In this document: piece by piece, positions 4,219-51,644 of the stretch
Layout of the letters: every line of letters begins with the position of its first letter
How positions within the stretch are numbered: position 1 is the first letter of the stretch
Assembly (NCBI GenBank): GCA_016190245.1
Contig: JACPQY010000071.1
Coordinates: forward strand, 1-64,000
Source of the DNA: Nitrospirota bacterium
GTDB taxonomy: Bacteria > JACPQY01
DNA: 64,000 bases
Reading direction: 5' to 3'
Program-made: the position numbers and the translations under genes
The notes under the pieces: model-generated
Told to the model about the DNA's origin: nothing
Database searches by the model: none
What the model saw: only the letters and a program-made list of their open reading frames with translations

Positions 4219-4219
4219 C

Positions 4220-4408
4220 TCAGTCCCTCCTCCGGTTCCACTCCCGGAAGTGCTTCAGCGTCGCGCGGAGGCGTTCATCGTGGCCCCAGCGCTTGTGGAA
4301 GGTCTCGACGATTTGGACGAGGTGCTTCTCGGAGAGGCCGTTGAGGAGGGCGACGACGGCGTCCGTGAGCCGGATCGCGAGCCCCTGAGAATCGTGGAGG
4401 ACTTTCAT
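4220..4408 (-). CDS. Unrecognised 62-residue protein in the defence operon
   Basis: A short helical, basic protein (MKVLHDSQGLA... ending EWNRRRD) that I do not recognise. Its ATG overlaps the methyltransferase TGA as ATGA, and its stop is one base from the CD-NTase start, so it looks translationally coupled on both sides. That coupling supports a real gene. A longer in-frame reading upstream to 4642 lies inside the methyltransferase gene and is not believable. Possible roles are a CBASS regulator, an antitoxin-like inhibitor or a specificity accessory of the methyltransferase; nothing in the sequence decides between them. Confidence 0.6.
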   Translation of the reverse strand: MKVLHDSQGLAIRLTDAVVALLNGLSEKHLVQIVETFHKRWGHDERLRATLKHFREWNRRRD

Positions 4409-6939
4409 CCCTCCCCCAGGTCTCGCACGACGACCGACTCGTTGCCGTACACGTCCACAACCTTCACCGCGATGCGCTTGTAGCCGCGCACCGGGAACGG
4501 CTCCGAGTCGAGCTTGAGCGTGAACTCCTCCGGGTCTACCTCGGCCCTGAGCGCGGCCTTGATGTTCGGCGCCTTCTTGAAGTCGAAGAACATCTGGCAG
4601 TCCACGAAGCAGTCGCCGTCGTAGTCCTCGTCGAGGTACCACGCCGAGACGTAGCCCGAGTCGGCCTGCTTGTACTCGGTGGTGCGGCGCTTGCGGTCGA
4701 AGAGCGCGACACCGTTGAGCGTAACGCGAAGCTGCTTCTCCTTACCATTCTTCACGGGCGCGACCCCGATATCCGGCAGCGCGAGCGGCGAGAAGAGCAT
4801 CTCCGGCTGCGTCGCCTTGAGCCCCTCGGCGAGGGTGTCCGGTCGGATCATGATCAGCTCGACCTTGACCTTGCCGCGTTTCTCGAGCTGCGACTTCACC
4901 TCGCCCACGTTCGCCTCGAAGGCCCAGCCGAGGACGTGCACCTCGAGGATGCCGGAGGCGAGCGCGTCCTGGACGGCGTCGTTGATCTGCTTGCCGGTCA
5001 CACGGCCAGAGAGCGGCCCGACGGAGATAGCGATCTTGACCTTCTCGGTCTCCGCCACCGCGTGCACGAGCCCGGTCGCGCCCTGGATCGCCGCGTCCTT
5101 GCGGTAGAGGCGGCAGATCACCTCGACATAGTTTTCGAGCTTCGCCGCCTCGCCGATGCCCGGCTCGCGGACGACATAACCCTTCCAGTCCTCGACCGAG
5201 TAGCGGCCAAGGGACATGACCTCGAAGGGGCCGCAGACACGGATGGCACTCTTGTCCACTTCCGGCTGGTCCACGAGCTCTACCTTCTCGGGCTCGAGGT
5301 CGTAGGCGAGGCTCTTCGGAGTGACGCGGTTGACAGCCTTGTAGAGGAAGTTGCCCGAGACCTTCCCATTGCGGGTCTTGTAGTGCTCGAACGTCGCGCC
5401 GAGCAGCCGCTGGCGGGCAACGTTGACCGCAACGCGCGAGGTGTCGCACGTGATCCAGCGCCGTCCGAGCCTCTCAGCTACAAACGCGGTGGTGCCTCCA
5501 CCACAGGCTGGGTCGAAGACCACATCTCCTGGTGCCGTACACATCGCCAACGCCCGCTCGACCACTTTCGGTGGGGTCTGTACCACATAGTGTGTGTCGT
5601 GAGACCGCATGAACCCGCTCACTACCGTGTCATCCCAGATGTTCCATAGCGTGCGAACCGGGAAGTCATTGGCGTACCGGATGGAGAAAATGTTCTTTCC
5701 CTTTTGGCCGATCCTGCCGAGATCAATGAGTCGTGCCATGCCTTCTGGCGTGGTGCTCCAGTGGCGTCCTGGCCGGGGTTTGAAGACCTCACCACGGAAC
5801 CTGACCTCGTACGATCCGGTCTCGCTCTCTCCCTGACTCGTCAGGTCCATGAACATGAGGCGCCGACCATCTGGAACTGCCTCAGTGCTCGTGAGCTGCT
5901 CATCGCTGAGCTGCACCCAGACGCCTTCCGCGGTCTCGACGAAGTTGAAGTCGCTCCGCTCATCCGGCGTACGAGGGCGATACAGCCGGAATGGGCGAAA
6001 CACCTCTGGTGACTTGCAGTACCAAAGGAGGACGTCATAGACGTCGTCTATGGCTTGCGAGCTGCGCCCGGCGGCACGGATGAATGCAATCTGGGACACG
6101 AACGAGGCTCGCTCGAACACTTCGTCCATCAAGGCGCGGACCAAGTGCACATTTTCACTACCTATCTGTACGAAGATAGATCCCGTCTCCGCCAGCAGTT
6201 CCCGGCACAGGTAGAGCCGCTCCTCCAGATACGACAGGTACGAGTGGATCCCCAGCGCCCACGTGTCCCGGAACGCCTTGATCGTCAGCACGTCATCGGC
6301 CGCTTCCTTCTCCTCGTTCTTCGTCGAATCCACCCGCTGCTGGAAGTTCGAGTCATACTTGATGCCGTACGGCGGGTCGATGTAGACCATCTGCACCTTA
6401 CCGCGCAGATTCTCGTAGTGGAGCAGCGACTCCATGACGTGCAATGAGTCGCCGCAGATGAGCTTGTTCTTCCAGCCCTCCTCGTGGGTGTAGAACTCGA
6501 CGCGCTTCGCCCGGTCGCTCTCGCGCAGCGTCTTCTCGAGGTCCGCGAAGAGGTGCCCCTGCCGTGCCGCGCCTGACTTCTCCTCGGCCGCCCGGCGCGC
6601 CCGCTCGATGATCTGCGCGATGCGCGACTCGGAGACGATCTCGTTGCGCTGCAGCGGCAGCACCGGCACCTCGCGCCGGTTGCGCTTGCCCGCCCAGAAG
6701 AGCACCGGGTCCGCCGCCGGGTCCATGTCCAACACCACCGGCCGCTCGTCCCCCTCCGGCAGCTTCCCGACCTCGATCGCCTTGCTCCAGCCGTTGTCCA
6801 TCGGCAGCGTCACCACCAGCTCGTCCGCCGGCAGGAGCGGCGTGTGGCCGGTCTCCGGCGTGCGCGGCTCCTTGATCTCGTCGTAGGTGTAGCGGGTGAC
6901 CTTCTTCGACGGTTTCCCACTCGTTTTCCCTTTGCCCAT
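4405..6939 (-). CDS. mod: Type III-like site-specific DNA methyltransferase (beta class)
   Basis: An 844-residue amino-methyltransferase. The catalytic DPPY motif (188-191) precedes the AdoMet-binding motif DPACGGGT (476-483), the order typical of beta-class Mod subunits of type III restriction systems. N- and C-terminal extensions likely hold target recognition and Res contacts. The frame is open to 7164, but the ATG at 6939 has an excellent AAGGAGGAAGAG just upstream, overlapping the stop of the helicase-nuclease gene 10 nt away. It is likely to modify one DNA strand at N6-adenine. It is separated from its presumed Res partner by the CBASS pair and the DUF4062 protein, which is unusual. Confidence 0.88.
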   Translation of the reverse strand: MGKGKTSGKPSKKVTRYTYDEIKEPRTPETGHTPLLPADELVVTLPMDNGWSKAIEVGKLPEGDERPVVLDMDPAADPVLFWAGKRNRREVPVLPLQRNEIVSESRIAQIIERARRAAEEKSGAARQGHLFADLEKTLRESDRAKRVEFYTHEEGWKNKLICGDSLHVMESLLHYENLRGKVQMVYIDPPYGIKYDSNFQQRVDSTKNEEKEAADDVLTIKAFRDTWALGIHSYLSYLEERLYLCRELLAETGSIFVQIGSENVHLVRALMDEVFERASFVSQIAFIRAAGRSSQAIDDVYDVLLWYCKSPEVFRPFRLYRPRTPDERSDFNFVETAEGVWVQLSDEQLTSTEAVPDGRRLMFMDLTSQGESETGSYEVRFRGEVFKPRPGRHWSTTPEGMARLIDLGRIGQKGKNIFSIRYANDFPVRTLWNIWDDTVVSGFMRSHDTHYVVQTPPKVVERALAMCTAPGDVVFDPACGGGTTAFVAERLGRRWITCDTSRVAVNVARQRLLGATFEHYKTRNGKVSGNFLYKAVNRVTPKSLAYDLEPEKVELVDQPEVDKSAIRVCGPFEVMSLGRYSVEDWKGYVVREPGIGEAAKLENYVEVICRLYRKDAAIQGATGLVHAVAETEKVKIAISVGPLSGRVTGKQINDAVQDALASGILEVHVLGWAFEANVGEVKSQLEKRGKVKVELIMIRPDTLAEGLKATQPEMLFSPLALPDIGVAPVKNGKEKQLRVTLNGVALFDRKRRTTEYKQADSGYVSAWYLDEDYDGDCFVDCQMFFDFKKAPNIKAALRAEVDPEEFTLKLDSEPFPVRGYKRIAVKVVDVYGNESVVVRDLGEG

Positions 6940-6949
6940 CTCTTCCTCC

Positions 6950-9748
6950 TTACGCGGCTTTCTTGGACATGGCAGTTTCACGGGGCCTGCAAATTCCGAC
7001 CATGTCGCAACCCTCGCACGTCTTGCACCAGGACGAAATCCGGGTGAGCTTGTTGTCACGTAGATTCCTACCCGCCTCCACCACCGTGTCCATTGTGTTG
7101 GCGAGCAGGGTGGAATCGACCTGTTCTCGAATCGCTCCGCCCTTGTCCAAATTGTGAATCTCAATGAGGTCGGGCCGTTTCCCCGTTAGTTGTTCGTATC
7201 CCACGGCGTATATGTGAAGCTGTTTTTGCGAGATGTCTTCCTTCTGAGCCCTTTCGTCTGACTTAAAATCGACGATCACCACCTCCTCGGTATCCGTCCG
7301 CCGTATCAGGTCAACCCGACCTGAGACAACCACACCTTCGTCGAGTTTCAGCTCGATGGGCTTCTCGACGTGTTCGAGCTTGGTGAGATTCTTGCCATGT
7401 TCGTTGATGTATCCAGACAAGGCCCTGTGGGCGGCATCACGGAGGGACTGTTCGACCTGCGCATTGGCGAACGGGAGATGAAGATGCTCGTCAACCAACC
7501 TCGGCACGTCAGTCCCGGAAGGTATTCTGCCAGCTATGGATTCCGAGTGAATTTCGGCCAAGGCGTCGTGGAGCGATTTTCCGTAGCCGAGCGCGCGACT
7601 GACGGGAGTGTCGAAACCGTACAGGAATCGGATCTTGAAGAGGTACGGACACTCGAAATAGTACTTCAGCGCGCTGAAACTCAGATTGAGGGTGATGTCC
7701 TCGCGGCGCGGCTTTTCCGGGATCCGAGGAGGGGTTGAAACCACAGGATCCTTCGTAAGGACATGCTCGCTGTTGGTGAAATCATTGAAAAAATCCGAAA
7801 CGGTACGCTGCTGCTGGTTATCGGCAATTGGCGCCCACGTGCAGAAGAGGTACTTTTCCGCCCGCGTGAGGGCCACGTAGAAGAGCCGTCGTTCGTCCGC
7901 AATCGTTCCCTTGTACCGATCAGCGTTCGTAACCGCCTTCTCCGGGAGGATGCTCCACACGGATCGGCCGCCTTGGCGCTTTGACGGGAAGCGGTTCTTG
8001 CGGAGCGCGGGAACAAAAACCGCGGGCCATTGCATCCCCTTCGCCCGGTGTACGGTGAGAATCTGGACGGCGTTTGGCCTCGCGAGGCCCGCTTCTTCCC
8101 AGCCTTCCGGATAATAGCCGGGGGCCTGGAAATGCAGGAACTGCGAGAAGCTGGGGTACAGGTCTTTCGGGACCGTATTGAAATGTATCTGCTCGAAATC
8201 GGAAACGACCTGGCTGAACTTGCCCAGGTTGAAGAACACGATCTCGCCCGCGCTCGCGTCTCCCGCTGCCGCGTTGATGTCCACTTCCCGAATCTGAATG
8301 GCCTCGAGAAAATCCAGATATAGCCGTTGGAGGTAGAGTTCAGCGTCCATCCGATCGCCGATGGTCGTCTTCTTCGCCTTCAGAAAATCCATTCCCGCAT
8401 CCAGCCGCCCGGATGGGAGACCGAGCCTGGGCGACTGGAGGGCTGCTCGAACGTCGGTCTCCGTGGGGGAGGTGCCTCCCTTGGGGGCAAAATCAGAAAG
8501 GTAGAAGAAAACCAGTGACATGGCCCGGACTTCCGGCGTGTCGAAAAGTCCATCCATGCCGGCGACCACGTAGCGGATTTCATTGCGATCCAACGCGGCG
8601 AGGATGGGTGCGGCGTCCCTCCGAACGGTACGAAGGAGGATGGCGAAATCCGAGTACGTAAGGCCGCGGGGCGGTGAGTCCTTTCTGTCCGTGAAGGGTG
8701 CCCCCAGCAGCGATTTGATCTTCCTGGCAATCCACTCCGCCTCAGCGGCAGGATCCTTGAATCCAAGCGCGAGCAGGTCGCCGCGCTGGTAGGGCTGCGC
8801 GTCCGTATGCTCCATTGCCTTCTGGAGCCGATCTGGATTGTTTTTTTCGGCGATTCTACGTGCCGTTTCCACAATGGCTCGACTGCTACGAAAATTCTCA
8901 TTCAGGGGGAGTTGCCGGACGTCCCCGTATCGATCGGAGAAAGTGATGATGTTGCCAACATCGCTTCCCCGCCACTGATAGATCGTCTGGTCATCGTCTC
9001 CCACCACGCAAACATTGGCGCCAAGGCCGGCCAGTTCCCGGATTAACGACTCCTGGAGCGGGTTGACATCCTGGTATTCATCGACAACGAGGTATTTCAG
9101 TTGGTTGCTGATCTTTTCCTTGATCGTGGCGTTGGTCTTGAGTTCAGCTACCGCCTCGGCAATGATCTTCGTGTAGTCTAGGAGTTTTTTCTCGACCAGA
9201 AGCTCATGGTATTTTCCGAACGCCTCCCACACTGCCCTTGGAATCTTTTTGGGTTCGACCTTCCCCTCGCCCAGGATCGCAAGCAACTGCTGGTACAGAG
9301 CTGAGTCTTTCCAACGCTCCAAATGGCCCCCGTTGAGCAGCGGGGTTTCGGTGAGCCCGCTCTTTTTGCTGTTCCGATCGATCAACAGACGCTGTTGAAC
9401 CTCGTCGAGGACTCTGTACTTCAGGAAGTCATACTGGGGCGGTGATTGAAGCAGGGTCAGGCAGTAGGCATGGATTGTCCCTATGAACATGTCGGCGAGT
9501 CCGCGATCGGTACCGAGAACTTCGCGGCAGTGAAGGTGAATTCGATCCTTCAACTCTCCAGCAGCCTTTTCAGTAAACGTAAAGGCGACGATATTTGGAG
9601 GTCCAACGCAGGCCGATTTCTTCTGTTTCAGAATCTCGACAATGCGGCGCGAGATGACTTCCGTCTTGCCGGAGCCGGCGCATGCGATTATCTGCAGGTT
9701 CCGGTCGATCGTGGAAATGGCCTTGAGTTGTGACTTTGTGTAGCTCAT
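6950..9748 (-). CDS. UvrD/RecB-type SF1 helicase with C-terminal PD-(D/E)XK nuclease
   Basis: A 932-residue helicase-nuclease. Walker A ACAGSGKTE is at 22-30, helicase motif II DEYQD at 223-227, and a motif near VHRAKGMQWPAVF resembles motif V. The C-terminus is a RecB-like nuclease with D813, D827 and K829 (GRVD ... IVDFKS) and four cysteines, C908, C911, C914 and C920, suggesting an iron-sulfur cluster as in AddB/Cas4-type nucleases. It is the first gene of the defence operon. Base composition is visibly lower in GC and codon use less biased than in its neighbours, hinting at separate acquisition. In this setting it more likely degrades foreign DNA than serves general recombination; that is inference. 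Confidence 0.87.
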   Translation of the reverse strand: MSYTKSQLKAISTIDRNLQIIACAGSGKTEVISRRIVEILKQKKSACVGPPNIVAFTFTEKAAGELKDRIHLHCREVLGTDRGLADMFIGTIHAYCLTLLQSPPQYDFLKYRVLDEVQQRLLIDRNSKKSGLTETPLLNGGHLERWKDSALYQQLLAILGEGKVEPKKIPRAVWEAFGKYHELLVEKKLLDYTKIIAEAVAELKTNATIKEKISNQLKYLVVDEYQDVNPLQESLIRELAGLGANVCVVGDDDQTIYQWRGSDVGNIITFSDRYGDVRQLPLNENFRSSRAIVETARRIAEKNNPDRLQKAMEHTDAQPYQRGDLLALGFKDPAAEAEWIARKIKSLLGAPFTDRKDSPPRGLTYSDFAILLRTVRRDAAPILAALDRNEIRYVVAGMDGLFDTPEVRAMSLVFFYLSDFAPKGGTSPTETDVRAALQSPRLGLPSGRLDAGMDFLKAKKTTIGDRMDAELYLQRLYLDFLEAIQIREVDINAAAGDASAGEIVFFNLGKFSQVVSDFEQIHFNTVPKDLYPSFSQFLHFQAPGYYPEGWEEAGLARPNAVQILTVHRAKGMQWPAVFVPALRKNRFPSKRQGGRSVWSILPEKAVTNADRYKGTIADERRLFYVALTRAEKYLFCTWAPIADNQQQRTVSDFFNDFTNSEHVLTKDPVVSTPPRIPEKPRREDITLNLSFSALKYYFECPYLFKIRFLYGFDTPVSRALGYGKSLHDALAEIHSESIAGRIPSGTDVPRLVDEHLHLPFANAQVEQSLRDAAHRALSGYINEHGKNLTKLEHVEKPIELKLDEGVVVSGRVDLIRRTDTEEVVIVDFKSDERAQKEDISQKQLHIYAVGYEQLTGKRPDLIEIHNLDKGGAIREQVDSTLLANTMDTVVEAGRNLRDNKLTRISSWCKTCEGCDMVGICRPRETAMSKKAA

Positions 9749-9778
9749 GGAATGCGTATTTTGCCCGCCCGGTACAGG

Positions 9779-9807
9779 ATGTTATGCGGCGGCTCGAGAC
9801 TATTCAA
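9779..9807 (-). promoter_or_regulatory. Candidate sigma70 promoter of the defence operon
   Basis: On the minus strand TTGAAT and TAACAT are separated by 17 bp, each four of six to consensus, about 30 bp upstream of the helicase start. It is the only reasonable match in the 227-bp leader. Confidence 0.35.
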
Positions 9808-9908
9808 GGGCCGGACGAGCCAAACCCCTTTTTCAGCTTCTATTCTGCAAACAATTCGACGAGGTGACGAGAAACAGCATACCCATCACCTTATGTCGCC
9901 CGGCAAAT

Positions 9909-9938
9909 TGGTGGCGAGAACTGCCATATGCGCCACCA
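9909..9938 (-). terminator. Hairpin downstream of tRNA-Gly, possible terminator
   Basis: A perfect 8-bp stem (TGGTGGCG/CGCCACCA) with a 14-base loop is followed on the minus strand by AATTTG. It lies about 40 bp past the tRNA 3' end, between it and the defence operon. Confidence 0.4.
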
Positions 9939-9974
9939 TGGCTTTGAAGGGCGGCCGGCCAATGGGGCGACGTG

Positions 9975-10046
9975 AGCGGGCGATGGGATTTGAACCCACG
10001 ACCCTCGGCTTGGGAAGCCGATGCTCTACCCCTGAGCTACACCCGC
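9975..10046 (-). tRNA. tRNA-Gly (anticodon CCC)
   Basis: A full cloverleaf can be folded: acceptor GCGGGTG/CGCCCGC, D-arm GCTC/GAGC, anticodon stem TCGGC/GCCGA around loop TTCCCAA (anticodon CCC), T-arm GTGGG-TTCAAAT-CCCAT, and discriminator U as usual for glycine. CCA is not encoded. Its 3' end points into the defence island. Confidence 0.95.
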
Positions 10047-10105
10047 ATCTTGGATACCAAAGACTAGATACTAGAAAGCGGGCGAAGCCGCAAGGGCGGG
10101 CGGGG

Positions 10106-11899
10106 TCAGAGCCGGTCCTCCATGCGGGTGAGGAGTTCGACCATGCGGTCCAGGATCGCGCCCGGCGCATAGCCGGGGAAGTTGAGGAGGACGATTTCCT
10201 TGGCGTAGAGTTTGGCGATGTACCGCCGCAGGCTTCTCAATTTCCCCCGGGCCGCGGCGTAGTCCCGGTGACCCGCGTTGATGTCAATGACGTTGGCGCC
10301 GGCGTCATAGCGCGACCGCCAAGGCTGCCCGGCCGCCTGGATCAGGCGGTAGCCGGGCAGACCGCGGCGCCCTTCGCCCCCCTCGCCCAAGAGGGGTGAT
10401 CGCTCCTCCACGGAGATCGTGGCCTTCGCGCGGACTTCGATCCCCTCCTGGGACGCCGTGACCCCGATCACAGCCGCCCCGTGCTCGTTCGGGGCGTGGA
10501 CTTCCGCCTGCGGGCCCTCGGCTCCCGCGATCCGCACCGGGCCGCTCTCGACTTCCCACACGTAGGCCACGCCCGCGTCAATGGACCGGCGCTGTTCGTC
10601 CATCGCGCGCGCCACCAAGCGGCGCGTCTCACCGGGAGCGATCCGCGCCCGCGCGGGCACGACGCACACCTGCGTCAGCGGCCCCGGAGGCCCCACCTCG
10701 AAGATTTCCACCTGACGCCGGTCACGCTCGCCCCCGCCCGGTGTTTCCGCCTGTTCCTCCTTGGCGGCGCGGCCCACCTCGAACAACTCGTATTCATGCT
10801 CTTCGAGCTGCCGGAGGGCCTCGGCCAGGGCGCGCTGCACATCCTTGAGCAGGTTCTCGCTCGCCTTCTGCTCCTCCGCGCGCTCCCGCGTCTCCAGGAA
10901 AGCCACAACCGCCGGCTCGATAGAGCGCACGGCCTCGATGAACCGGGCCAACATCGCGTCCGGCACCACACCGCTGCGCGTGGCGGGGCTGACGTTGAGC
11001 CCGGGGAAATCTACAAGACCCTCCAGCCGGTTGAGCGTCCAGGGGGGGCGGTTGAAATCGTCGAGGTCCTGGATCCGGCCGGCCACGCGCGTCCCGTCAC
11101 GGAAGACGCCGACATCGAGGGGCTCCCCCTCGGCGGGGACGCGGTAGTAGAGGTCCACCCGCACGGGCGCCGCCTCGGGCACGGCAATCTCCCGGGTAAG
11201 CTCCACCCTCTCTCCCTGAAAAGCCTTGGGCTTCACGGTGAGGCGCTTGCGCGAGACCTTGTCCACGATTTCGATGAGGACGCCCGTGGACCGGATCCGA
11301 TCCCGCAGCTCCTCCGCCAGGTAGCGCTCCAGGCGCTCGCCGCTCAGCGTTCGCTTTGCCGTGTCCCTCACCGGCGTGACCGTCACCTCTACACCCGGAA
11401 GGGGCAACCGTCCCCTTGAGGGGTGGATCGAATATTTCGGCGAGCCCGCGCGCATGACCATCTCGTACAGTCCGCCGTCGCTTCCCCGCGAGGAGAACCT
11501 CAACACCTCCCCCACCGCCCAGAATCCGAGGAGGCCGATGCCGAATTCGCCGTGCACGCCGGTTCGCTCGCCCTCCGTCAGGTGGCGCTTGATGGAGTCG
11601 CAGATGTGCGTCGCTACGTAGCGGAAGTCCGGCCGCCCGTCTTCGCCCAGCCTGACGCCTTGGCCGTCGTCCAGCACGGTGAGGTAGGTCTTGCCGCGGT
11701 GCCGGCCCCGGACGATCGAGACGCGCCGCGCGCGGGCATCCAACGAGTTTTCCACGAGCTCCGCCACGGCCTTCAGGGGATTGGTTTGCGTGCGGGCCAA
11801 GAGGACGATCGCATTCCATTCATCGCCGATGCGCAGCTTGCCGGACTGGGGGCGTCCCACGACGGGGGAGCCTAGCACGGATCGCCCGCCCGGCTCCAT
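10106..11899 (-). CDS. GHKL ATPase-domain protein (MutL/Hsp90-like ATP-binding fold)
   Basis: A 597-residue protein with an N-terminal GHKL nucleotide-binding domain: AVAELVENSLDAR is the N-box with the catalytic glutamate, VLDDGQGV the G1 box, and GEFGIGLLGFWAVGE the G2 box. The arrangement recalls MutL and other HATPase_c_3 proteins. A glutamate/arginine-rich, probably coiled segment follows (about 325-380), then an Ig-like beta region and a conserved C-terminal stretch (PGYRLIQAAG...). No MutL endonuclease domain is seen. It lies 24 nt downstream of the Crp/Fnr gene, so may be co-transcribed. The function is unknown; a role in DNA transactions is only a guess from the ATPase family. Confidence 0.75.
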   Translation of the reverse strand: MEPGGRSVLGSPVVGRPQSGKLRIGDEWNAIVLLARTQTNPLKAVAELVENSLDARARRVSIVRGRHRGKTYLTVLDDGQGVRLGEDGRPDFRYVATHICDSIKRHLTEGERTGVHGEFGIGLLGFWAVGEVLRFSSRGSDGGLYEMVMRAGSPKYSIHPSRGRLPLPGVEVTVTPVRDTAKRTLSGERLERYLAEELRDRIRSTGVLIEIVDKVSRKRLTVKPKAFQGERVELTREIAVPEAAPVRVDLYYRVPAEGEPLDVGVFRDGTRVAGRIQDLDDFNRPPWTLNRLEGLVDFPGLNVSPATRSGVVPDAMLARFIEAVRSIEPAVVAFLETRERAEEQKASENLLKDVQRALAEALRQLEEHEYELFEVGRAAKEEQAETPGGGERDRRQVEIFEVGPPGPLTQVCVVPARARIAPGETRRLVARAMDEQRRSIDAGVAYVWEVESGPVRIAGAEGPQAEVHAPNEHGAAVIGVTASQEGIEVRAKATISVEERSPLLGEGGEGRRGLPGYRLIQAAGQPWRSRYDAGANVIDINAGHRDYAAARGKLRSLRRYIAKLYAKEIVLLNFPGYAPGAILDRMVELLTRMEDRL

Positions 11900-20898: not shown

Positions 20899-21666
20899 GT
20901 GAGGACGCCGAAGAGTTCGAAGGAACGGCTGGACGTTCTGCTCGCGCGGCGCGGGCTCGCCGTCTCGCGTGAGCAGGCCCAGCGGCTCATCTTGGCCGGA
21001 CGCGTAGCAGTCCCGGGCCTTCCCCACCCCAAGGCGGGGAGCCTAGTGGCCGCCGACTCGGATATCCGTGTCGGCTCCGACCCCCTCCCCTTCGCGAGCC
21101 GGGGGGGGGTGAAACTGCGCCACGCCCTCGATGTGTTCGGCCTCGATCCCACCGGCTGCGTGTGCGCGGACATCGGCTCCTCCGCGGGTGGGTTCACGGA
21201 CTGCCTGCTCAAGGCCGGCGCGGCCCGCGTGCACGCGGTGGACGTCGGGAAAGGCCTCCTCGACCCCCGCCTTCGCGCCGACCCGCGCGTGAAGCTGATC
21301 GAGGACACGAACGCCCGATACCTCGGCTGCGAGCAGGTCCCCGAACCTCTCGATCTGGTGACCGTGGATGTGTCGTTCATTTCCGCCACGCACATCCTGC
21401 GCGCCGTCACCCCCCTCCTGCGGCCGGGAGGGATGCTCGTTGTGCTGGTGAAACCGCAGTTCGAGCTGACCCCCAAGGACAACCGGAAGGGCGTCGTGCG
21501 CGACCCCGCGAAGCAGGCCGAGGCGGTGGCAAAGATCAGGGCGTTCGGGACGGAACTTGGCCTTCAGGTGAGCGCCGAAACCGAATCGCCGCTCAGAGGA
21601 CCGAAGGGGAACAGGGAGTTCTTCGTGTTGCTGACACGGCAGTCGGCAGTCGAGAGTCGGCAGTAG
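20899..21666 (+). CDS. tlyA: TlyA family rRNA 2'-O-methyltransferase
   Basis: A 255-residue protein with an N-terminal S4 RNA-binding domain (KERLDVLLARRGLAVSREQA) and an FtsJ/RrmJ-like methyltransferase domain with AdoMet motif DIGSSAGGFTDCLL, catalytic-type motifs VDVSFIS and LVKPQFE. TlyA enzymes methylate 16S/23S rRNA cytidines. I start at GTG 20899 because it gives the family-typical N-terminus; the frame is open upstream through repeat copy A and an ATG at 20848 is possible. The last residues (RQSAVESRQ) and the TAG stop are encoded by a heptamer repeat array, so the native C-terminus has been replaced or extended. A G9 tract lies at 21101-21109. Confidence 0.9.
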   Translation: MRTPKSSKERLDVLLARRGLAVSREQAQRLILAGRVAVPGLPHPKAGSLVAADSDIRVGSDPLPFASRGGVKLRHALDVFGLDPTGCVCADIGSSAGGFTDCLLKAGAARVHAVDVGKGLLDPRLRADPRVKLIEDTNARYLGCEQVPEPLDLVTVDVSFISATHILRAVTPLLRPGGMLVVLVKPQFELTPKDNRKGVVRDPAKQAEAVAKIRAFGTELGLQVSAETESPLRGPKGNREFFVLLTRQSAVESRQ

Positions 21667-21739
21667 GCAGTCGGGAGTAGGCGGAGCCTGGGGAAGAAGG
21701 GGGCAAGTTTCGACCACCGACTCACGACTGCCGACTGCC
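21638..21739. repeat. Inverted arrays of a 7-bp repeat between convergent genes
   Basis: Six degenerate heptamers (GGCAGTC, GAGAGTC, GGCAGTA, GGGAGTA) at 21638-21679 face three inverted units (GACTCAC, GACTGCC, GACTGCC) at 21719-21739, with 39 bp between. The left array contains the tlyA stop codon; the right array ends 3 bp before the stop of the convergent gene. The whole could fold into a long stem acting as a bidirectional terminator. Confidence 0.8.
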
Positions 21740-21742
21740 GAG

Positions 21743-32481: not shown

Positions 32482-33900
32482 TCAGTAGAACAGTGACAGC
32501 GTGATCCCGCCGGCGAGAATGGTTCCCTTGGCGGTGAAAGAAGGGTAGCCGGGATTCGAGAGCAGGACTTTCTGGACGAACTCCTCCGTCGGTTCTTTTT
32601 CCTCCATCGCGAGGGCCTTGAGGGCTGAGGAAGACGCCCGCAACTGGTCCTCGCTCTTCGTGCTGCTCTCTGCAGGCAGGTACCGAAGTTGGGTGTGCAG
32701 ATCCAGCCGGAACGACTTGCCCGGCCCGAGCACCTCCCCCGAGCGGATGCCAAGCCCCGTCGAGATCACGTGCTCGTCCGGCCACAGCACGTTGATCTCG
32801 CCGCTCTGTGGGGGTACGGGGGAAGGCTCAAAACCGTAGCCCCCGCGGATCGCCCAATCGGGATGGGGCCGGTACTCGACGCCCACCCTCGGCACGAACG
32901 TGTCCTTGAATCCGTAGTCGACGGCCACACCCGTCACGAAGAGCGCCGCGATCGTCTCCTGCCCTTCCACATCGAGATCCTGGAGGGGAAGGATCGTCGG
33001 GGGATACTCCGAATACTGGTACATGCTGAGGTCGGCGGAGAGGAGCCAACGACCGCTGTCGTAGGCCGCCCCGCCCACGACCTGCTTGGGTTCGTAGAAT
33101 GTCCGCCCCTTGACGGGGAGACTCACCACCGTCGGGCCCGTGAGCCCCACGTCGGTCACGACCGGGCTGTCCACACCCAGTGAAATGTCATCCCGAAAGG
33201 CAAGGGCGAGACGAAGCTGCTCCGTCGGAAACATGAGAACGCCGAACGCGGGGGCGATGGCGTAGTTGAGGTCGATACGGAAATTGTCGTCGGCCACCCG
33301 GTTAAAATGCGGGCTGTCCGGCTGTTTCACGTACGTGCGGATGGGAACCGTGGCGCTGATGGGCCCGCCGAACTCGGCAAACTGGTGGATCGCGGCCCCG
33401 ACGGAGAACCACCGGCCGAACTTTGCCGCGAGCGCAAGGCCTGCGAAAATCCGATTGTTGTTGAGGTACCGCGGGAAGTGCGGGGCCGAGCGCTCCGGCA
33501 TCTCGACGAGAATGATCCCCGAGGTCGGCAGATTGACGGTGAATCCGAACGCCGCCTTGACGAGATCATACGTGAACAGCGAGTTCGTTCCCCCCAGGAG
33601 GAACCCCTCAGGCCGCTTCACGTCCATCTTGTCGTTTTGCGCCGCCGGGTTTTCGGAATCGAAGCGAAGGTTCGTGCTGGCGCTGTAGAAGGCGAGACCG
33701 ACGTGGGATCTCTCCACCTGGACCAGAGCGCCCGGGTTGTAGAAGGTGGCGGAGAAATCGTCGCTCACCGCCGTGTAGGCCCCCCCGAGACCGGAGGCCC
33801 TCGATCCCACGCCGAACACATTCATCGCATCGGCCCCTGCGTCCCCCGCGGAAGCGGCGAGGCATCCCAAACCAACACAAGCGGTCCACATTCGTCTCAT
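32482..33900 (-). CDS. FadL/OMPP1/TodX-family outer-membrane protein
   Basis: A 472-residue barrel protein. The signal peptide ends near GDAGADA. It is followed by the family N-terminal motif NVFGVGSRASGLGGAYTAVS and FSATFYNPGALVQVE, which forms the hatch that plugs the FadL barrel. Homologs move long-chain fatty acids or hydrophobic compounds across the outer membrane. The start overlaps the FapA stop as ATGA, so the two are co-transcribed. The C-terminal aromatic (SLFY) fits barrel insertion. Substrate unknown. Confidence 0.87.
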   Translation of the reverse strand: MRRMWTACVGLGCLAASAGDAGADAMNVFGVGSRASGLGGAYTAVSDDFSATFYNPGALVQVERSHVGLAFYSASTNLRFDSENPAAQNDKMDVKRPEGFLLGGTNSLFTYDLVKAAFGFTVNLPTSGIILVEMPERSAPHFPRYLNNNRIFAGLALAAKFGRWFSVGAAIHQFAEFGGPISATVPIRTYVKQPDSPHFNRVADDNFRIDLNYAIAPAFGVLMFPTEQLRLALAFRDDISLGVDSPVVTDVGLTGPTVVSLPVKGRTFYEPKQVVGGAAYDSGRWLLSADLSMYQYSEYPPTILPLQDLDVEGQETIAALFVTGVAVDYGFKDTFVPRVGVEYRPHPDWAIRGGYGFEPSPVPPQSGEINVLWPDEHVISTGLGIRSGEVLGPGKSFRLDLHTQLRYLPAESSTKSEDQLRASSSALKALAMEEKEPTEEFVQKVLLSNPGYPSFTAKGTILAGGITLSLFY

Positions 33901-35408
33901 TTCTTCTCTTCTCCTCCTTCCACAACCGTTCCCCGGAATCGCGACGCGATCACGTGCGTATCCGGATCCACATAGAATTTCACCTGCCGCATGTGGTCCA
34001 CGGTGACGAACTTGGCGCGACCGAGCCGGATCTCCACCCGGGGTTCAATCTCCTCCACGACGTCCACCATCGCGTTGATCACCATGTCCTTGCGCCCCAT
34101 GAGCTCCGATCGCTTCTGGGTGAGCGCCTTGATGCCGTCATGAAGATCGTGCCACGCGCCGGCGGCCTTGAGGAACGTCCGCTTGTGGAAACCCGTGAAT
34201 TTCGAGGCATCCTTGGCCGCCAGCGCTTCGCGCGGATACCGGGCTTCCAACGCGTCGATCTTCTCCTGGGCTTTCCGCAACTGCTCCTCGATGTCCGTGA
34301 GACCCCGCTCCACGAAGTAGTCCATCCCCGCCTCGATGATCGTCGTCACGCTGCTCATCTTCCCCGAGCCGATACGCTTGGCGAGGATCCCCTTGGTCGC
34401 GCCCACGTGCCCCCCCTTGATGGCCCCCTTCCCGCCGACCACCTTCACCATGCCGCCGCACAACACCTGGCTGTCCAGGATATCGTTGGCCACGATCACG
34501 TCGCCTTTGGCCTCCACCTTCGCTCTCTCGATGTACTTCGCGATCACATCGGACTCCGAGTAGATGTGCCCCTTCCCAGCGCCCTTCACTCCCCCGCGGA
34601 GCACGACCTTCCCCTTCGCGCGAATCGTGGCGGCCTCGACGTAGTCGCCCACCTCCACTTCGCCCTCGGCCTCCACGACGAATCCCGACGCCACACGACC
34701 CGAGATCAGGACGGACCCTTTCGCACGGATGTTGCCCACCGAGTAGTCCACGTCCCCGTTGATCTGCACGGCCGGCTGGACTTCGATAAGTTGACCGAGG
34801 TACACCGGGCGACCGTCGATCAATGAGTTGTAGTGATACACGCCCTCCTTCTCGACGACCTCCACGTTCTTCCCGGCGGTGAGCTTCTTGTCCTGACCCT
34901 TGCGCGCTTTGAGGACGTTGCCGTTGACCGTCCGCCCGTCCTTCCCCGTTGTCGCCGCCTTCTTCGTGGCCATCGTGAAGCCCTGGCCGACGGACTTGAT
35001 CATCTGTCTCTCGCGGTAGTCGATCTTCCCCGTTTCCTCATCCAGGATGCCGGCCACCGCGTCGAAATCCATCTCCATCTTGACTTCCGCATCCGTGCCG
35101 TCCACGGGGAGATCGCCCTTGGCCACCAGCCGGTTCTGCACGGGCTTCCCCTCTCGCGCGAGCCGGACCACGTCCTCCACGACATCTTGCTTGATGCCAT
35201 AGGTGACGTGGGACTCCTTCAGCTTCTCCAGAATGTCCTTGGGCTCCACGTCGTGGAAGAGCTGGGCGTCGCCCTTCAGCGTGATGTACGCTTCCAGACC
35301 GTCAGGAGAGACCTCGACCGTGAGGGGATCCGCCGCAACCGCTTCGTCCACGCGGGTGCCGAAATCCGCCTGGCCGCCGCTGCTGCCGCCACCGCTGGGA
35401 TCAGCCAC
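33897..35408 (-). CDS. FapA/DUF342 family protein
   Basis: A 503-residue protein with an N-terminal segment around YGIKQDVVEDVVRLAREGKP, then a long right-handed beta-helix-like core of repeating hydrophobic strands (GDVDYSVGNIRAKGSVLISG, VLCGGMVKVVGGKGAIKGG), and a C-terminal coiled coil (about 375-445). This is the DUF342/FapA layout; FapA proteins occur in many Gram-negative and Gram-positive bacteria and are linked to polar or flagellar functions in some, but biochemical function is not settled. No signal peptide, so cytoplasmic. It is first in a two-gene unit with the FadL-like gene. Confidence 0.86.
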   Translation of the reverse strand: MADPSGGGSSGGQADFGTRVDEAVAADPLTVEVSPDGLEAYITLKGDAQLFHDVEPKDILEKLKESHVTYGIKQDVVEDVVRLAREGKPVQNRLVAKGDLPVDGTDAEVKMEMDFDAVAGILDEETGKIDYRERQMIKSVGQGFTMATKKAATTGKDGRTVNGNVLKARKGQDKKLTAGKNVEVVEKEGVYHYNSLIDGRPVYLGQLIEVQPAVQINGDVDYSVGNIRAKGSVLISGRVASGFVVEAEGEVEVGDYVEAATIRAKGKVVLRGGVKGAGKGHIYSESDVIAKYIERAKVEAKGDVIVANDILDSQVLCGGMVKVVGGKGAIKGGHVGATKGILAKRIGSGKMSSVTTIIEAGMDYFVERGLTDIEEQLRKAQEKIDALEARYPREALAAKDASKFTGFHKRTFLKAAGAWHDLHDGIKALTQKRSELMGRKDMVINAMVDVVEEIEPRVEIRLGRAKFVTVDHMRQVKFYVDPDTHVIASRFRGTVVEGGEEKK

Positions 35409-38522: not shown

Positions 38523-39785
38523 GTGCTTCACACCCTTCACGATCTGAACCGTTACCTCCTGAGGCTCGACCCCTCCAGGATCCGTCTGGGCCTCACCCCC
38601 ACAAAAGCGGCGCTCGAGCGCCTTGGCCATCCGGAGCGCCGGATGCGCGTCGTCCATGTTGCCGGTACAAACGGCAAGGGCTCGGTCTGCGCGATGACGG
38701 CCTCCGTCCTGAGCGCGGCAGGCTACCGGACCGGCCTCTACACGTCGCCCCACATCCTCGACCTGCGCGAGCGGATCCAGGTGGATCGCCAAGCCATCGG
38801 ACGGAGGGAATTCGTTCAGGTTTCCGACCGCGTGGCGCGCGCCCTCAGGCGGCCGCCGGCCATCGATCTCACTCATTTCGAATTCCTGACCGTGGTGGCG
38901 CTGGTCCACTTCGCGGAACAGGTCGTGGACTTCGCCGTCCTCGAAACCGGGATGGGCGGCCGCCTCGATGCCACCAACGCGGTCGCCCCGGACGTATCCG
39001 TCATCACGACGATCGGGCTCGACCACACCGAGTGGCTCGGCCGGACGATCAAGGCGATCGCCGGCGAGAAAGCCGGGATTCTCAAGGCCGGAGTCCCCGC
39101 CGTGACCATGGCCCCCATCGGACCGATCGTCCGGCGTGCCCGCGCCCTGCGCGCGCCGCTCCGACTGCCCCTTCGGGAGGAAAGCTGGGCCTGGGCACCC
39201 CCGAATCGCCTCCTGCATAGGGGCCGCGAATGGCCTCTTCCCTACCGGGGCTCCTGCTACGCCGCGAACGCCCTCCTCGCGCTGACGGCCATCGAGGCCA
39301 TGGGCCTACACCTGCCTGCACCGGCGATCCGTGCGGGGCTGGCCAACGGCGGGCAATTCGGGCGGGGGACTCTCGTGCGTGTCCGTGGCCGAAGGGCCCT
39401 CCTCGACGTGGCGCACAATCCCCAAGCCATTCAAACCCTCGGCCGAACACTCGAAGAGGTCCATCCCACGGGCCGGAGGATCGTTCTCCTCGGCCTTCTG
39501 GCGCACAAGGATGCCGCAAGCATCCTTCGAGAACTTGGGACGTGGGCCGACCACGTCGTGCTCACTCAACCGGTTCCCCCCCCCCGCGGCTGTCCCGTGG
39601 CTCGCTTGGTCGAACTCGCCACGACCGCCCGCCTCCGCTTCTCCGCAGAGCCGCTCTTCGCCCGAGCGCTCAAGAGGGCCGTCGCATCGACGGGGCGCCA
39701 GGATCTCGTCGTCATCACGGGTTCTCACACGACCGTCGCCGCCTTTCAGAGAACCAAGTTTGACCGGTCCCGGACCGTGTGCTAG
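38523..39785 (+). CDS. folC: Folylpolyglutamate synthase / dihydrofolate synthase
   Basis: A 420-residue Mur-ligase-family enzyme that adds glutamate to folates. ATP loop HVAGTNGKGSVCAM, the folate-site YTSPHILDLRERI, ETGMGGRLDATN, and the second-domain VAHNPQAIQTL motif are all present. Start is GTG 38523. A C10 tract at 39576-39585 lies within codons for prolines. It precedes the split MetE genes, consistent with folate-linked one-carbon metabolism. Confidence 0.94.
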   Translation: MLHTLHDLNRYLLRLDPSRIRLGLTPTKAALERLGHPERRMRVVHVAGTNGKGSVCAMTASVLSAAGYRTGLYTSPHILDLRERIQVDRQAIGRREFVQVSDRVARALRRPPAIDLTHFEFLTVVALVHFAEQVVDFAVLETGMGGRLDATNAVAPDVSVITTIGLDHTEWLGRTIKAIAGEKAGILKAGVPAVTMAPIGPIVRRARALRAPLRLPLREESWAWAPPNRLLHRGREWPLPYRGSCYAANALLALTAIEAMGLHLPAPAIRAGLANGGQFGRGTLVRVRGRRALLDVAHNPQAIQTLGRTLEEVHPTGRRIVLLGLLAHKDAASILRELGTWADHVVLTQPVPPPRGCPVARLVELATTARLRFSAEPLFARALKRAVASTGRQDLVVITGSHTTVAAFQRTKFDRSRTVC

Positions 39786-39802
39786 ATTCGCCGCCTCCAC
39801 GC

Positions 39803-40792
39803 ATGCAAATCCAGGTCATGAATCACTCCAGCTACCCTCGTGTGGGGGATCCCACGAAGTTGCAGAGCCTTCGGCGGATCCACGACCAGTGGGAAAAAGG
39901 GGAAAAGTCCGACGAGGACCTGCGCGCGGCGGAGGATCTGGCCGTCCTGGAGGCCATCCTCGACCAAGATCGCGCCGGCGTGGACATCGCCACCGACGGC
40001 CTCGTTCGGTGGGACGACCCCATCTCCCACCTCCTGAAAGGTCGCAGCGGCGTGACGCTGGGCGGGCTCGTCCGCTATTTCGACTCGAATTTCTACATCC
40101 GACGGCCCGCACTCGGAGGAAAAGAGATCAACGGCGCGAGCCGCATGCGCGAGGAATTCGTGTACGCCTCCGCGTTGACCCACACCCCGATCAAACCCGT
40201 CGTAACCGGCCCCCTCACCCTGGCTCATCACACGACTTGGAAGCCGCCTCTCTTCGAGACCATCGAAGCCGCGGCCGAAGCCCTAGCCAAGCCGGTGGCC
40301 GCGGAAGTTCGCGCCCTCGCGGAGGCGGGAAGCGAGTTCATCCAGATCGACGAACCGAGCCTGGCCCACGTGGACGTGGATGCGAAAGTCTACAAGAACA
40401 TCCTCAAACCCGTCGTGGGCGCGAAGTCGAAAGCCAAACTGATTCTCGCGGTCTATTTCGGCGACTGCACACGCCTCCTCGGCCCACTCAGTACGCTCGA
40501 CATCGACGTCCTCTGCCTCGACTTCACCTACAGCCCGGGGCTCACGGACGAGATCAGGGCCACCGGGCTGCGCAAGCCGCTGGCGGCCGGTCTGGCCGAC
40601 GGGCGCACGACCAAGATGGAGAGCCCCCGGCAGATCGCGGAACGCTTCAACCAGATCGCCGGCAAGCTCCGGGCCGACGTGGGCTACCTCGTGCCCTCCT
40701 GCGGCCTCGAGCACGTCCCGCGCGACGCCGCCCAGCGCAAGCTCGATCTCCTCGCGAAGGCCAGGGCCCACCTGAGGGGCGCCGCCGCATGA
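39803..40792 (+). CDS. MetE N-terminal-domain-like protein (cobalamin-independent methionine synthase, half 1)
   Basis: A 329-residue (beta-alpha)8-type protein of the UROD/MetE superfamily. It starts like the MetE N-domain (SSYPRVGDPTKLQSL) and has the N-domain version of the core strand, LILAVYFGD, where the catalytic domain has a zinc-binding H-x-C. PSCGLEH retains one cysteine near the end. In full-length MetE this domain binds folate but is not catalytic. It overlaps the second half by ATGA. The longer frame from 39779 lies in the end of folC and is not used. Confidence 0.85.
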   Translation: MQIQVMNHSSYPRVGDPTKLQSLRRIHDQWEKGEKSDEDLRAAEDLAVLEAILDQDRAGVDIATDGLVRWDDPISHLLKGRSGVTLGGLVRYFDSNFYIRRPALGGKEINGASRMREEFVYASALTHTPIKPVVTGPLTLAHHTTWKPPLFETIEAAAEALAKPVAAEVRALAEAGSEFIQIDEPSLAHVDVDAKVYKNILKPVVGAKSKAKLILAVYFGDCTRLLGPLSTLDIDVLCLDFTYSPGLTDEIRATGLRKPLAAGLADGRTTKMESPRQIAERFNQIAGKLRADVGYLVPSCGLEHVPRDAAQRKLDLLAKARAHLRGAAA

Positions 40793-41796
40793 GCCGCGAG
40801 AAACTGCATCAGCTCGGAATCGACCTGCCCCTCCTGCCCACGACCTCCGTCGGCAGCTTCCCCCGCACCGAAGAACTCCGGAAAGCCAAGTCCAGGGCCC
40901 TTAAGGGCGAGGTGGACCCGGACCAGGTCCGCGAGAAGGAGCGCGAAGCCACGGCCTTCTGGATCCATAAGCAGGAAGAAATCGGCCTCGATGTCCTCGT
41001 GGATGGAGAGCAGTATCGGGGCGACATGGTCTCCTATTTCGCGGACTCCCTTCGAGGCATGGAGAGGGGCGGGCTCGTGCGATCCTACGGCAACCGCTAC
41101 TACCACAAACCCGTCATCACCTCCGAGGTCCGCTGGGAGTCCCCCGTCACGGTGGACTGGTGGACGTACGCGCAGTCGCTGACGACCCGTCCCGTGAAGG
41201 GGATGCTCACCGGTCCCTACACGATGATGGACTGGTCGTTCGACGAGTACTACCCGGACCGGCGGACCGCCGCCCTGGCGTTCGCCCGCGAAATTCGCAA
41301 GGAGGTGGAGGCACTCGTCCGTGCCGGCGCCAAAATTATCCAACTCGATGAGCCGGCGCTCTCGGCCCGACCCGGCGAGCTCCCGCTCGCGGTCGAGGCG
41401 CTTCACGCGGTCACCGAGGCCGTGCCGGCCTACTTCATCGTCCACATTTGCTACGGGGCCTTCGACTTCATCTACCCGGGGCTCCTCAAGATCCCCGCTG
41501 ACAACTTCGATCTCGAGATGACCAACAGCGGCTTCAGCCTGGTCCGGCTCTTCAGGCGCAACCCGTTCACCAAAGACCTTTCCGTCGGCCTCATCGAATC
41601 CCATTCCCACGTGGTCGAGTCGGAGGACGTTCTCCTGGAACGTCTCCACGTGGCCCTGAACTCGATGCCCACACCCCAACTCTGGTGCGATCCCGATTGC
41701 GGCCTCAAGACGCGCACACCGGAGGAAGCCATCGGCAAGCTCCAGGCCTTGGTCAAGGTGGTGACCCACGCTCGCCAAGGCTTGGCCCCCAACTGA
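40789..41796 (+). CDS. MetE catalytic-domain protein (methionine synthase II, half 2)
   Basis: A 335-residue barrel protein homologous to the C-terminal half of MetE: TTSVGSFPRTEELRKAK at the start, and the four zinc/homocysteine ligands in order, H and C in VHICYG, E in GLIESHSHVVE, C in DPDCGLKTR. It should activate homocysteine for methylation. The ATG overlaps the preceding TGA by 4 nt. It could be a core-MetE that accepts methyl groups from a corrinoid protein, or work with the preceding N-domain-like protein on methyl-folate. Confidence 0.9.
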   Translation: MSREKLHQLGIDLPLLPTTSVGSFPRTEELRKAKSRALKGEVDPDQVREKEREATAFWIHKQEEIGLDVLVDGEQYRGDMVSYFADSLRGMERGGLVRSYGNRYYHKPVITSEVRWESPVTVDWWTYAQSLTTRPVKGMLTGPYTMMDWSFDEYYPDRRTAALAFAREIRKEVEALVRAGAKIIQLDEPALSARPGELPLAVEALHAVTEAVPAYFIVHICYGAFDFIYPGLLKIPADNFDLEMTNSGFSLVRLFRRNPFTKDLSVGLIESHSHVVESEDVLLERLHVALNSMPTPQLWCDPDCGLKTRTPEEAIGKLQALVKVVTHARQGLAPN

Positions 41797-43776: not shown

Positions 43777-44203
43777 GGGAACCTCCTTCAGCGATGGATA
43801 CCCCGCATGCGTTCAGCACCCCCCCGGCGCACGTGGGACGTGCCACCTCCCCTTCCCGCCATCCGGCGGGAAAGGACTCGAGCCGGAAGCGCCTCCCGGC
43901 ATTCTCCGCTCCTCCTCGACGGAGGAGTCCGCCCGTGGCGGAGAGGGTGGGGGCGAACACCTGCAACTGTCTCAGCGGCGATGCTATCGGCTGGCGGGTG
44001 CGCTGTCAACCATTTCCACCCCCAGAGAATGACGTGGCGGCACGTGACATTGATATGACCGCATGTGCCGAGCCATTGACAAGAATTTAGCAAACTGCTA
44101 GAAATGAAAATGAGTAGCTTGAGGCATCACGGGTGACTGGGCCACCCAATGCTAAGGGGGTTGACGATAATACCCGGGATGCATACCCAAAGGAGTAGAT
44201 GAG
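43777..44203. promoter_or_regulatory. Divergent intergenic region with promoter and operator candidates
   Basis: For the plus-strand regulator gene, TTGACA (about 44074-44079) and TAGAAA are 17 bp apart, with the palindrome TAGCA-AAC-TGCTA inside the spacer. A second near-palindrome, GGGATGCATACCC, lies about 25 bp before the start codon. The left half holds a GC-rich inverted-repeat stretch (about 43855-43950). Confidence 0.5.
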
Positions 44204-44782
44204 ATGGACAACGAGCCACTGCCCGCCGGAGCCGGGGCGGCGACCCCGGACGAACCGACCTCCGTTGAGGAAAGCGCTCTCGCGGTCAGCCAGCAGGTAA
44301 TTGCGGACATTCTGGGACTTGACCGGACCACCGTGAACAAGGTCCTCAATGGTCACCCTTCCATGATCACCAGCAAGAAGACTGTGGAAAGCGTCATCAG
44401 GGTGGCCAAGGAGATGGGCTACGACTTCTCCCGGCTTCGCAAGAAGTACAAGCGGAAGTACGAGCGCAAGCACGTGAAGATCAGATCCGAAGTGGAGGTC
44501 TACCTTTCGGAAACCGGCGAGCTGTATGACCGCGGGTGGTGCACCATAAATAACCTCACGCCGGACGGGGCGCTTATCAGCGGCGTCTGGACCGTCAAGG
44601 GAGGGTTCCCGCTTCGGCCGTTCACGGTAAAACTCCGGGCGATCGAAACCGACCTCCAAGGAGTCGAGGGCGTGTTTGAAGTGGTACGATTCCGTTCCAA
44701 CGGAGCAATCATGATGGGCATGCGCGCGGTGGAGATGCGCGATGACCATCAGCAACGCATTCGCGATCACTTGAGGATATAG
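44204..44782 (+). CDS. LacI-type HTH fused to a PilZ-like domain
   Basis: A 192-residue regulator. Residues 28-73 are a LacI-type HTH (VIADILGLDRTTVNKVLN, then ITSKKTVESVIRVAKEMGY), without any sugar-binding domain. A basic linker (KKYKRKYERKHVKIR) leads to a beta-rich C-terminal domain of about 95 residues that looks PilZ-like: the arginine-rich entry and N-x-T-x-x-G (NLTPDGALI) resemble the c-di-GMP-binding RxxxR and (D/N)xSxxG motifs, though both are imperfect. ATG 44204 has GGAG ten bases upstream. It may be a nucleotide-responsive DNA-binding protein. Confidence 0.75.
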   Translation: MDNEPLPAGAGAATPDEPTSVEESALAVSQQVIADILGLDRTTVNKVLNGHPSMITSKKTVESVIRVAKEMGYDFSRLRKKYKRKYERKHVKIRSEVEVYLSETGELYDRGWCTINNLTPDGALISGVWTVKGGFPLRPFTVKLRAIETDLQGVEGVFEVVRFRSNGAIMMGMRAVEMRDDHQQRIRDHLRI

Positions 44783-44803: not shown

Positions 44804-46099
44804 ATGGAACGTTTGGGGCGACGCGCATCTTGGGCATGGGTGATCGGGCTTCTCGCCGCCGTGCCCGTGTCGGCCGGCACTTGGCCCCTGTTGGGCGGAA
44901 ACGTCGCGCGGACTTCCGCGACGAGTGAAACGCTCAGCCATCCGCTGGCCGTGGCTTGGCGTGGGGAACTGAAGGGCCAGCCCCTCAGCGGCCTCTCCTC
45001 GGACGGCCGACTCATTTTTGTGGGCACCAACGCGGCCACGGTGGTTGCCGTGGACATTGCAAGCGGGAAGACCGCCTGGACGTACAAGGCCGGAGATCGA
45101 ATCCATTCGACTCCCGCCGTGGAAGGGGGGGTGGTGTACGTGGCCTCCTACGACCGGCACCTCTACGCTCTCGATGCCTCCCGCGGGAGCCTGCTCTGGA
45201 AGGCCGTGAGCGGCGGCAACGAGATGAGTTCTCCGGCGGTCGCAGGTGGATTGGTCTACGTGAGCTCGGGCTTCCCCAACACCAAGCTCCTCGCCTTCAA
45301 TCCCACCGGCCGCCTGGCGTGGGAACGCGATCTCGGGCAGATGAGCTACAGTTCACCCGCCGTCGCCGGCGACACCCTGCTGGTCGGCAGTAACAACGGC
45401 CGGCTGATCGCGGTGGACCGGACTTCGGGCAAGGTTCTCTGGACCCACACCACGCGCGGATCCGTGATGCTCTCCTCCCCAACCGTCACGCCGGGGGGCA
45501 CCGCGCTCTTCGCCCCCGGTGGCGAGGATCCGAACGTCTACGCCGTGTCCGTGGCCACGGGCAAGCCGGAGTGGGTGACCCCTTTGATTCGGCTCGCTCA
45601 ACGAGCGCCTTCAAGAGAGGTCGCGGCCGACACGGTTGAGGAATGCCTTGACCCTGACGCGGATCAGCGGCAGGGCGGCGAGTGCACACGCGCGATGCTC
45701 GCGCGCCAGAAAGCGGGCAAGACGGCCCGCGCACCGTCAAAACCCTCAGGACCGGAGTCCGTCCTCACCTCTCAGATCGCCGTGGCCGGGGAAACGGCCT
45801 TTGTCATGGCCTCGGCGGGAACGCAGAAGCTCTTCGCCCTCTCCCTCGCGAACGGCACGATCCGGTGGTCCGTGGAGGTCGGGATCCCGAGCACGCCGGC
45901 GTTCAGCTCCAGTCCGCTCGTGGCCGGCCCCACCGTCTACGTCGGGACCGGTAACGGCGAGTTGGCCGCCGTGAACGCCGCCGATGGGACGAAGCTCCCC
46001 TCGCTTGCGCTCGATGGATCGGCCAACACACCACTGGCGGTGGTCGACGGGAAGCTGTTTGTCGCGACCGAAGCCGGAACGCTTTTCGCGCTCAAATAG
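44804..46099 (+). CDS. PQQ-like (BamB-type) beta-propeller protein, exported
   Basis: A 431-residue exported protein. The signal peptide ends VPVSAGT. The rest is a run of seven or so PQQ-type propeller blades with the repeated pattern VVAVDIASGKTAWTYKAG, HLYALDASRGSLLWKA, LIAVDRTSGKVLWTH. No quinoprotein metal or disulfide motif is seen, so this is a structural propeller such as BamB rather than a dehydrogenase. An insertion with two cysteines (about 285-330) interrupts one blade. It lies 21 nt after the regulator and is probably co-transcribed. Confidence 0.85.
   Translation: MERLGRRASWAWVIGLLAAVPVSAGTWPLLGGNVARTSATSETLSHPLAVAWRGELKGQPLSGLSSDGRLIFVGTNAATVVAVDIASGKTAWTYKAGDRIHSTPAVEGGVVYVASYDRHLYALDASRGSLLWKAVSGGNEMSSPAVAGGLVYVSSGFPNTKLLAFNPTGRLAWERDLGQMSYSSPAVAGDTLLVGSNNGRLIAVDRTSGKVLWTHTTRGSVMLSSPTVTPGGTALFAPGGEDPNVYAVSVATGKPEWVTPLIRLAQRAPSREVAADTVEECLDPDADQRQGGECTRAMLARQKAGKTARAPSKPSGPESVLTSQIAVAGETAFVMASAGTQKLFALSLANGTIRWSVEVGIPSTPAFSSSPLVAGPTVYVGTGNGELAAVNAADGTKLPSLALDGSANTPLAVVDGKLFVATEAGTLFALK

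Positions 46100-48929: not shown

Positions 48930-51640
<2,711 letters not shown>

Positions 51641-51644
<4 letters not shown>

Follow-up and report, generated by a model that had tools for sequence, protein, structure and literature searches.

The window, i.e. the whole stretch of 64,000 nucleotides that was analysed, contains a gene for a small protein in which a LacI-type helix-turn-helix (HTH) is predicted to be joined to a divergent PilZ domain, the usual sensor of c-di-GMP. The reading that we favour, and that we consider somewhat probable, is a one-component c-di-GMP-responsive regulator, composed of a LacI-type HTH and a PilZ sensor, that likely autoregulates its own operon. The genes, domains and motifs on which this reading is based, as well as the gene pair, the promoter-like site, the palindrome and the GGDEF and PilZ matches, come from sequence and computation. 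An earlier note on this DNA had described a LacI-type HTH joined to a PilZ-like domain at 44204-44782, and its interpretation is supported at the level of architecture, by FruR/LacI relatives for the HTH and by profile, hhalign and Foldseek comparisons for PilZ. The features discussed below are as follows.

44076..44104, +, promoter-like site TTGACA-17 nt-TAGAAA (consensus match only)
44124..44136, +, candidate operator RCATCAC-NN-GTGA (GCATCACGGGTGA; motif chosen post hoc)
44204..44782, +, HTH-PilZ fusion coding sequence, 192 aa (ORF, ATG start, ortholog)
44285..44428, +, predicted LacI-type helix-turn-helix, residues 28-75 (best PDB sequence matches, LacI relatives, ortholog conservation)
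44429..44479, +, basic hinge-like helix and switch loop, residues 76-92, SRLRKKYKRKYERKHVK (model helix, repeat, conservation)
44453..44467, +, RxxxR motif R84-K-Y-E-R88 (alignment A3)
44480..44773, +, predicted PilZ barrel and C-terminal helix, residues 93-190 (profiles, hhalign, AlphaFold, Foldseek)
44552..44569, +, NxTxxG motif N117-L-T119-P-D-G122 (PilZ second motif (D/N)xSxxG with T for S)
44804..46099, +, beta-propeller gene, PQQ_2/BamB-like (Pfam; N-terminal signal peptide by inspection)

The fusion gene and its ortholog

The source genome, a draft assembly of 3.29 Mb, comprises 86 contigs; its phylum is poorly known and has barely been studied. Besides it, the genome collection searched contains a single genome of this phylum, G001, which belongs to the same family and to a different genus. 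An ortholog of the fusion protein is found there (73% identity over 175 residues, collinear across both domains), i.e. two orthologs of the fusion are known. The G001 ortholog begins at the HTH, which makes residues 1-27 a private extension of the window protein. A GGAG ribosome-binding site is located about 7 nt 5' of the ATG of the fusion gene.

Over the 165 shared codons, the differences between the window gene and its ortholog number 32/21/93 at the first, second and third codon positions, and dN is 0.18 as compared to a dS of about 4.4, which is near saturation. These values show that the ORF is a real gene on which purifying selection acts. The possibility of a frameshifted or truncated LacI repressor was also considered and is rejected, as the PilZ part is conserved in both genomes and purifying selection maintains it.

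The LacI-type head and the hinge

The best PDB sequence matches of the HTH are FruR and Cra-type regulators, FruR being at the top. Relatives of the HTH were re-read at nine loci elsewhere; they show 34-56% identity in a segment that continues through the third helix as far as the hinge, and all six of the nine loci that were scanned with Pfam contain a LacI HTH followed by Peripla_BP. Judged by sequence, the head of the fusion protein is LacI-type. Pfam searches on residues 28-75 give weak matches to the Crp, HTH_3 and LacI models, all below the cut-off, and Pfam and NCBIfam searches with the window protein alone gave weak HTH matches only and none to PilZ. A Crp or XRE type HTH, for which the Pfam scores are slightly higher, was dropped because the match to the LacI head extends via helix 3 to the hinge.

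No Pfam match to the Peripla_BP sensor domain was found in the fusion protein, which ends at residue 192, and in the absence of this sugar-binding domain the protein is not a LacI-family repressor. A LacI-profile match above the cut-off was not found in its own genome either, therefore the head does not come from an extant paralogue seen there. The HTH is followed by a very basic hinge-like helix (residues 76-88; 76-86 in the AlphaFold model), and the coding sequence of this segment includes a 12-bp tandem repeat (44443-44470).

The C-terminal PilZ domain

On the evidence of sequence and predicted fold, the protein ends in a divergent PilZ domain, a member of the PilZ family; each line of evidence is moderate, and the lines agree. 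The G001 ortholog aligns with Pfam PilZ (PF07238) over positions 2-100 of 102 with an E-value of 0.0039, a match that does not reach the curated cut-off, and the window protein alone gives no match to this model. Profile A1, consisting of two sequences (the window protein and its ortholog), matches with its positions 78-190 the C-terminal domains of two proteins of G056, a genome of another phylum (E 2.7e-8 and 1.9e-7), and more weakly C-terminal domains in G146 and G588. According to Pfam, the one G056 protein scanned consists of HTH_17, receiver and PilZ domains, and the matched G146 protein of a weak receiver and PilZ. The hhalign probability is 96.5% against these PilZ domains; against nine PilZ domains from the same genome as the fusion it is 89%.

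Structure prediction, which the earlier note had named as a check, gives a C-terminal fold that is PilZ, as judged by moderate-confidence single-sequence models and Foldseek. The AlphaFold model of the window protein (single sequence) has strands at 93-101, 107-118, 124-130, 140-148, 155-164 and 169-178 and a helix at 180-190; the mean pLDDT is 65 for the full-length model and 71 for the PilZ domain alone, which has the same topology. The best PDB matches found by Foldseek with the full-length model are MapZ with c-di-GMP, the BcsA PilZ domain, PA0012 with c-di-GMP, and Alg44, and several PilZ structures among the best matches are c-di-GMP-bound. The PilZ matches mostly have a probability of 0.9-1.0 and none has an E-value below 0.001; a second Foldseek search gave a similar result. 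A PDB sequence search with the PilZ alignment yielded nothing useful.

Ligand motifs

The canonical PilZ ligand motif consists of RxxxR and (D/N)xSxxG (PMC10333796, PMC3131395). In an alignment with the nearest PilZ homologues (A3), the columns of R84 and R88 (columns 6 and 10) contain Arg in 6/6 sequences. There is also an alternative, overlapping register, R88xxxK92, in which residue 92 is R in the G001 ortholog; this doubled RxxxR pattern may arise because the 12-bp tandem repeat encodes the segment. The residue after R88 is Lys, not a hydrophobic one, and the replacement of S by T in NxSxxG is common to both orthologs. The PilZ motifs had been called degenerate in the earlier note. They are less so than was claimed: R84xxxR88 is intact in the register that the nearest homologues support, and NLTPDG corresponds to NxSxxG with T for S. 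The earlier note would have counted a missing arginine pocket in the model against its reading; an arginine motif is present at the level of sequence. Both orthologs retain R84/R88, N117 and G122 and have an identical YDRGWCTINNLTPDGALIS segment, which suggests that the site is maintained. Failure to bind c-di-GMP is known from some PilZ domains whose motifs are incomplete (PMC3131395, PMC10333796). Judged by its motifs, c-di-GMP binding by the fusion protein is plausible.

Gene neighbourhood and control region

The propeller gene begins 21 bases past the stop codon of the fusion gene and its product is, by sequence, probably an exported envelope protein. The pair of HTH-PilZ and propeller genes is also present in G001. 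Identity between the two genomes is 92% in the HTH (44/48 residues), 72% in the PilZ core and 55% in the propeller, thus the regulator is better conserved than its likely target. The pair sits in a wider block that is conserved in G001 and that includes folC, two MetE-like genes, an ACT protein and a thiolase. The MetE-like genes are adjacent, single-domain methionine synthase genes (Meth_synt_2, 39779-41796), found in the same order in G001. As for the signalling context, there are 20 GGDEF matches in the genome of the fusion gene and 24 in G001, and 10 PilZ matches in the former.

Upstream of the gene, TTGACA is common to the window and G001, and the -10-like element 17 bases further on is poorer. 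The candidate palindrome TCAC-NN-GTGA lies downstream of the promoter-like site in both genomes, with conserved arms and a different centre; the G001 copy, upstream of the ortholog, is ACATCACAAGTGA. The extended palindrome RCATCACNNGTGA occurs once in the whole genome to which the window belongs, upstream of the fusion gene, and four times in G001, where three copies are inside ORFs and the remaining one, 5' of the ortholog, is not. We regard the palindrome as a lead and not as proof, since the motif was picked after seeing the alignment.

Proposed function and alternatives

In the proposed mechanism, the LacI-type HTH would read a short palindrome and the PilZ domain would sense a cyclic dinucleotide, most likely c-di-GMP. 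The hinge-like helix of the model has the RxxxR motif at its end. When VCA0042 binds c-di-GMP, its N-terminal domain rotates and wraps the ligand (PMC3131395), and by analogy, a ligand bound beside the hinge might order or move the hinge and the HTH, which would change the affinity for DNA. The simplest circuit would be autoregulation at TCAC-NN-GTGA, just 3' of the gene's own promoter, in a two-gene operon of HTH-PilZ and propeller, and expression of the exported propeller would thereby be set in step with the c-di-GMP level. Binding of c-di-GMP, dimerisation, DNA binding at the palindrome, co-transcription, the direction of the effect and the propeller's role are the parts of this scheme that we infer. 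A bolder proposal, which we put forward tentatively and rate just below an even chance, is that the protein represents a class of one-component c-di-GMP receptors, so far undescribed, where PilZ replaces the sugar sensor of LacI, RxxxR ends the hinge, and ligand binding and DNA binding are coupled via one short helix.

Three other explanations need to be discussed. The PilZ domain may no longer bind c-di-GMP and may serve as a dimerisation or protein-interaction module (xPilZ), in which case the DNA-binding regulator would be constitutive or controlled by a partner. The T for S in NxSxxG, the Lys after the second Arg and the low similarity to the general PilZ profile would all fit this possibility, and there are known cases of PilZ domains with incomplete motifs that depend on a partner (PMC3131395, PMC10333796). 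The motif residues kept in both orthologs and the invariance of YDRGWCTINNLTPDGALIS argue against it, and we consider it unlikely, even though it carries the most weight of the three. The changes with respect to the canonical motif could also mean that the pocket has been altered to accept another ligand, i.e. another cyclic dinucleotide or an envelope-related metabolite, and the GWCTINNLTPDG segment, highly conserved yet unusual, could be read in this way. Nothing positive speaks for such a ligand, however, and diguanylate cyclase domains abound in both genomes, so this explanation seems improbable to us. Finally, the C-terminal part might be some other small beta-barrel that resembles PilZ by chance, as the window protein alone stays below the Pfam threshold and the Foldseek E-values lie above 0.01; since sequence, profile and fold searches separately agree on PilZ, we think this very improbable.

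If the favoured reading, a one-component c-di-GMP-responsive regulator, is true, this direct joining of HTH and PilZ would amount to a minimal and modular transcription switch for c-di-GMP, and it would mean that a classical repressor scaffold can accept PilZ as a drop-in domain. Such a fusion could be used as a compact c-di-GMP reporter, and together with the propeller gene it would be the first regulator-target pair for the host phylum.

Comparison with known systems

It is useful to compare the fusion with MrkH of Klebsiella pneumoniae, an activator composed of YcgR-N and PilZ domains that has no HTH, binds at the promoter of the mrkHI operon, to which its own gene belongs, and contacts DNA by basic patches on both domains (PMC5055493). 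Like MrkH, the fusion appears from its sequence to be a PilZ protein acting as a transcription regulator, i.e. a work-alike; unlike MrkH, it has a canonical LacI-type HTH for its predicted DNA binding. No Pfam match to the YcgR-N domain was found in the fusion protein. The N-terminal HTH and the position of the hinge after it are shared with LacI/GalR repressors such as FruR and Cra, whereas PilZ stands in place of their periplasmic-binding-protein-like sensor. On the favoured reading, the fusion is a variant among PilZ-based transcription factors such as MrkH; it is not a LacI-family repressor. FleQ, Clp, BldD, BrlR and LtmA, HTH transcription factors switched by c-di-GMP (review PMC12564702), would be work-alikes too, but their ligand sites are not PilZ domains.

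The nearest PilZ domains by profile are those of the G056 and G146/G588 REC-PilZ proteins, with 21-25% identity in the PilZ part. The G056 proteins resemble the fusion in pairing an HTH with PilZ, and differ from it in that the HTH is of the MerR/excisionase type and a receiver-like domain intervenes. Two similar proteins of this kind are encoded in G056 (L023 910-1845 and L014 1492-2430; one was scanned), and from their sequence the HTH_17-receiver-PilZ architecture may represent another kind of PilZ transcription factor.

Both genomes of the phylum in the collection have the fusion, which is rare elsewhere, in agreement with the earlier description of its architecture as uncommon. No further HTH-PilZ fusion was found with profile A1 in more than 1,000 other genomes (1,156 genome searches including repeats), a survey which very diverged ones could escape. 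A peptide-pattern scan of 84,980 species genomes likewise gave no fusion, only a LacI head with 51% identity in Enterobacter, and no fusion was found in plasmids and viral contigs. No description of a LacI-PilZ or HTH-PilZ architecture was found in the literature searched; a mention in the survey of Galperin and Chou (2020) is possible.

Other features of the window

A group of defence-like genes (1163-11899) adjoins a tRNA gene (9975-10046). It contains a protein weakly matching SIR2-pAgo-associated models (1163-3439), a DNA methyltransferase resembling those of type III (4405-7164), a UvrD/GajB-like helicase that carries a long C-terminal extension (6950-9748) and a protein that by inspection is GHKL-ATPase-like (10106-11899). 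A FapA/DUF342-like protein, also recognised by inspection (33897-35408), adjoins an outer-membrane FadL-like protein (32482-33900). The gene for valyl-tRNA synthetase (48930-51644, - strand, identified by inspection) contains in frame 3.8 perfect copies of a 14-bp tandem repeat, CGACTGCCGACTCC (50286-50338), which add a Gly-Ser-Arg-rich stretch to the protein, and similar 7/21-bp repeats are found at 21637-21741.
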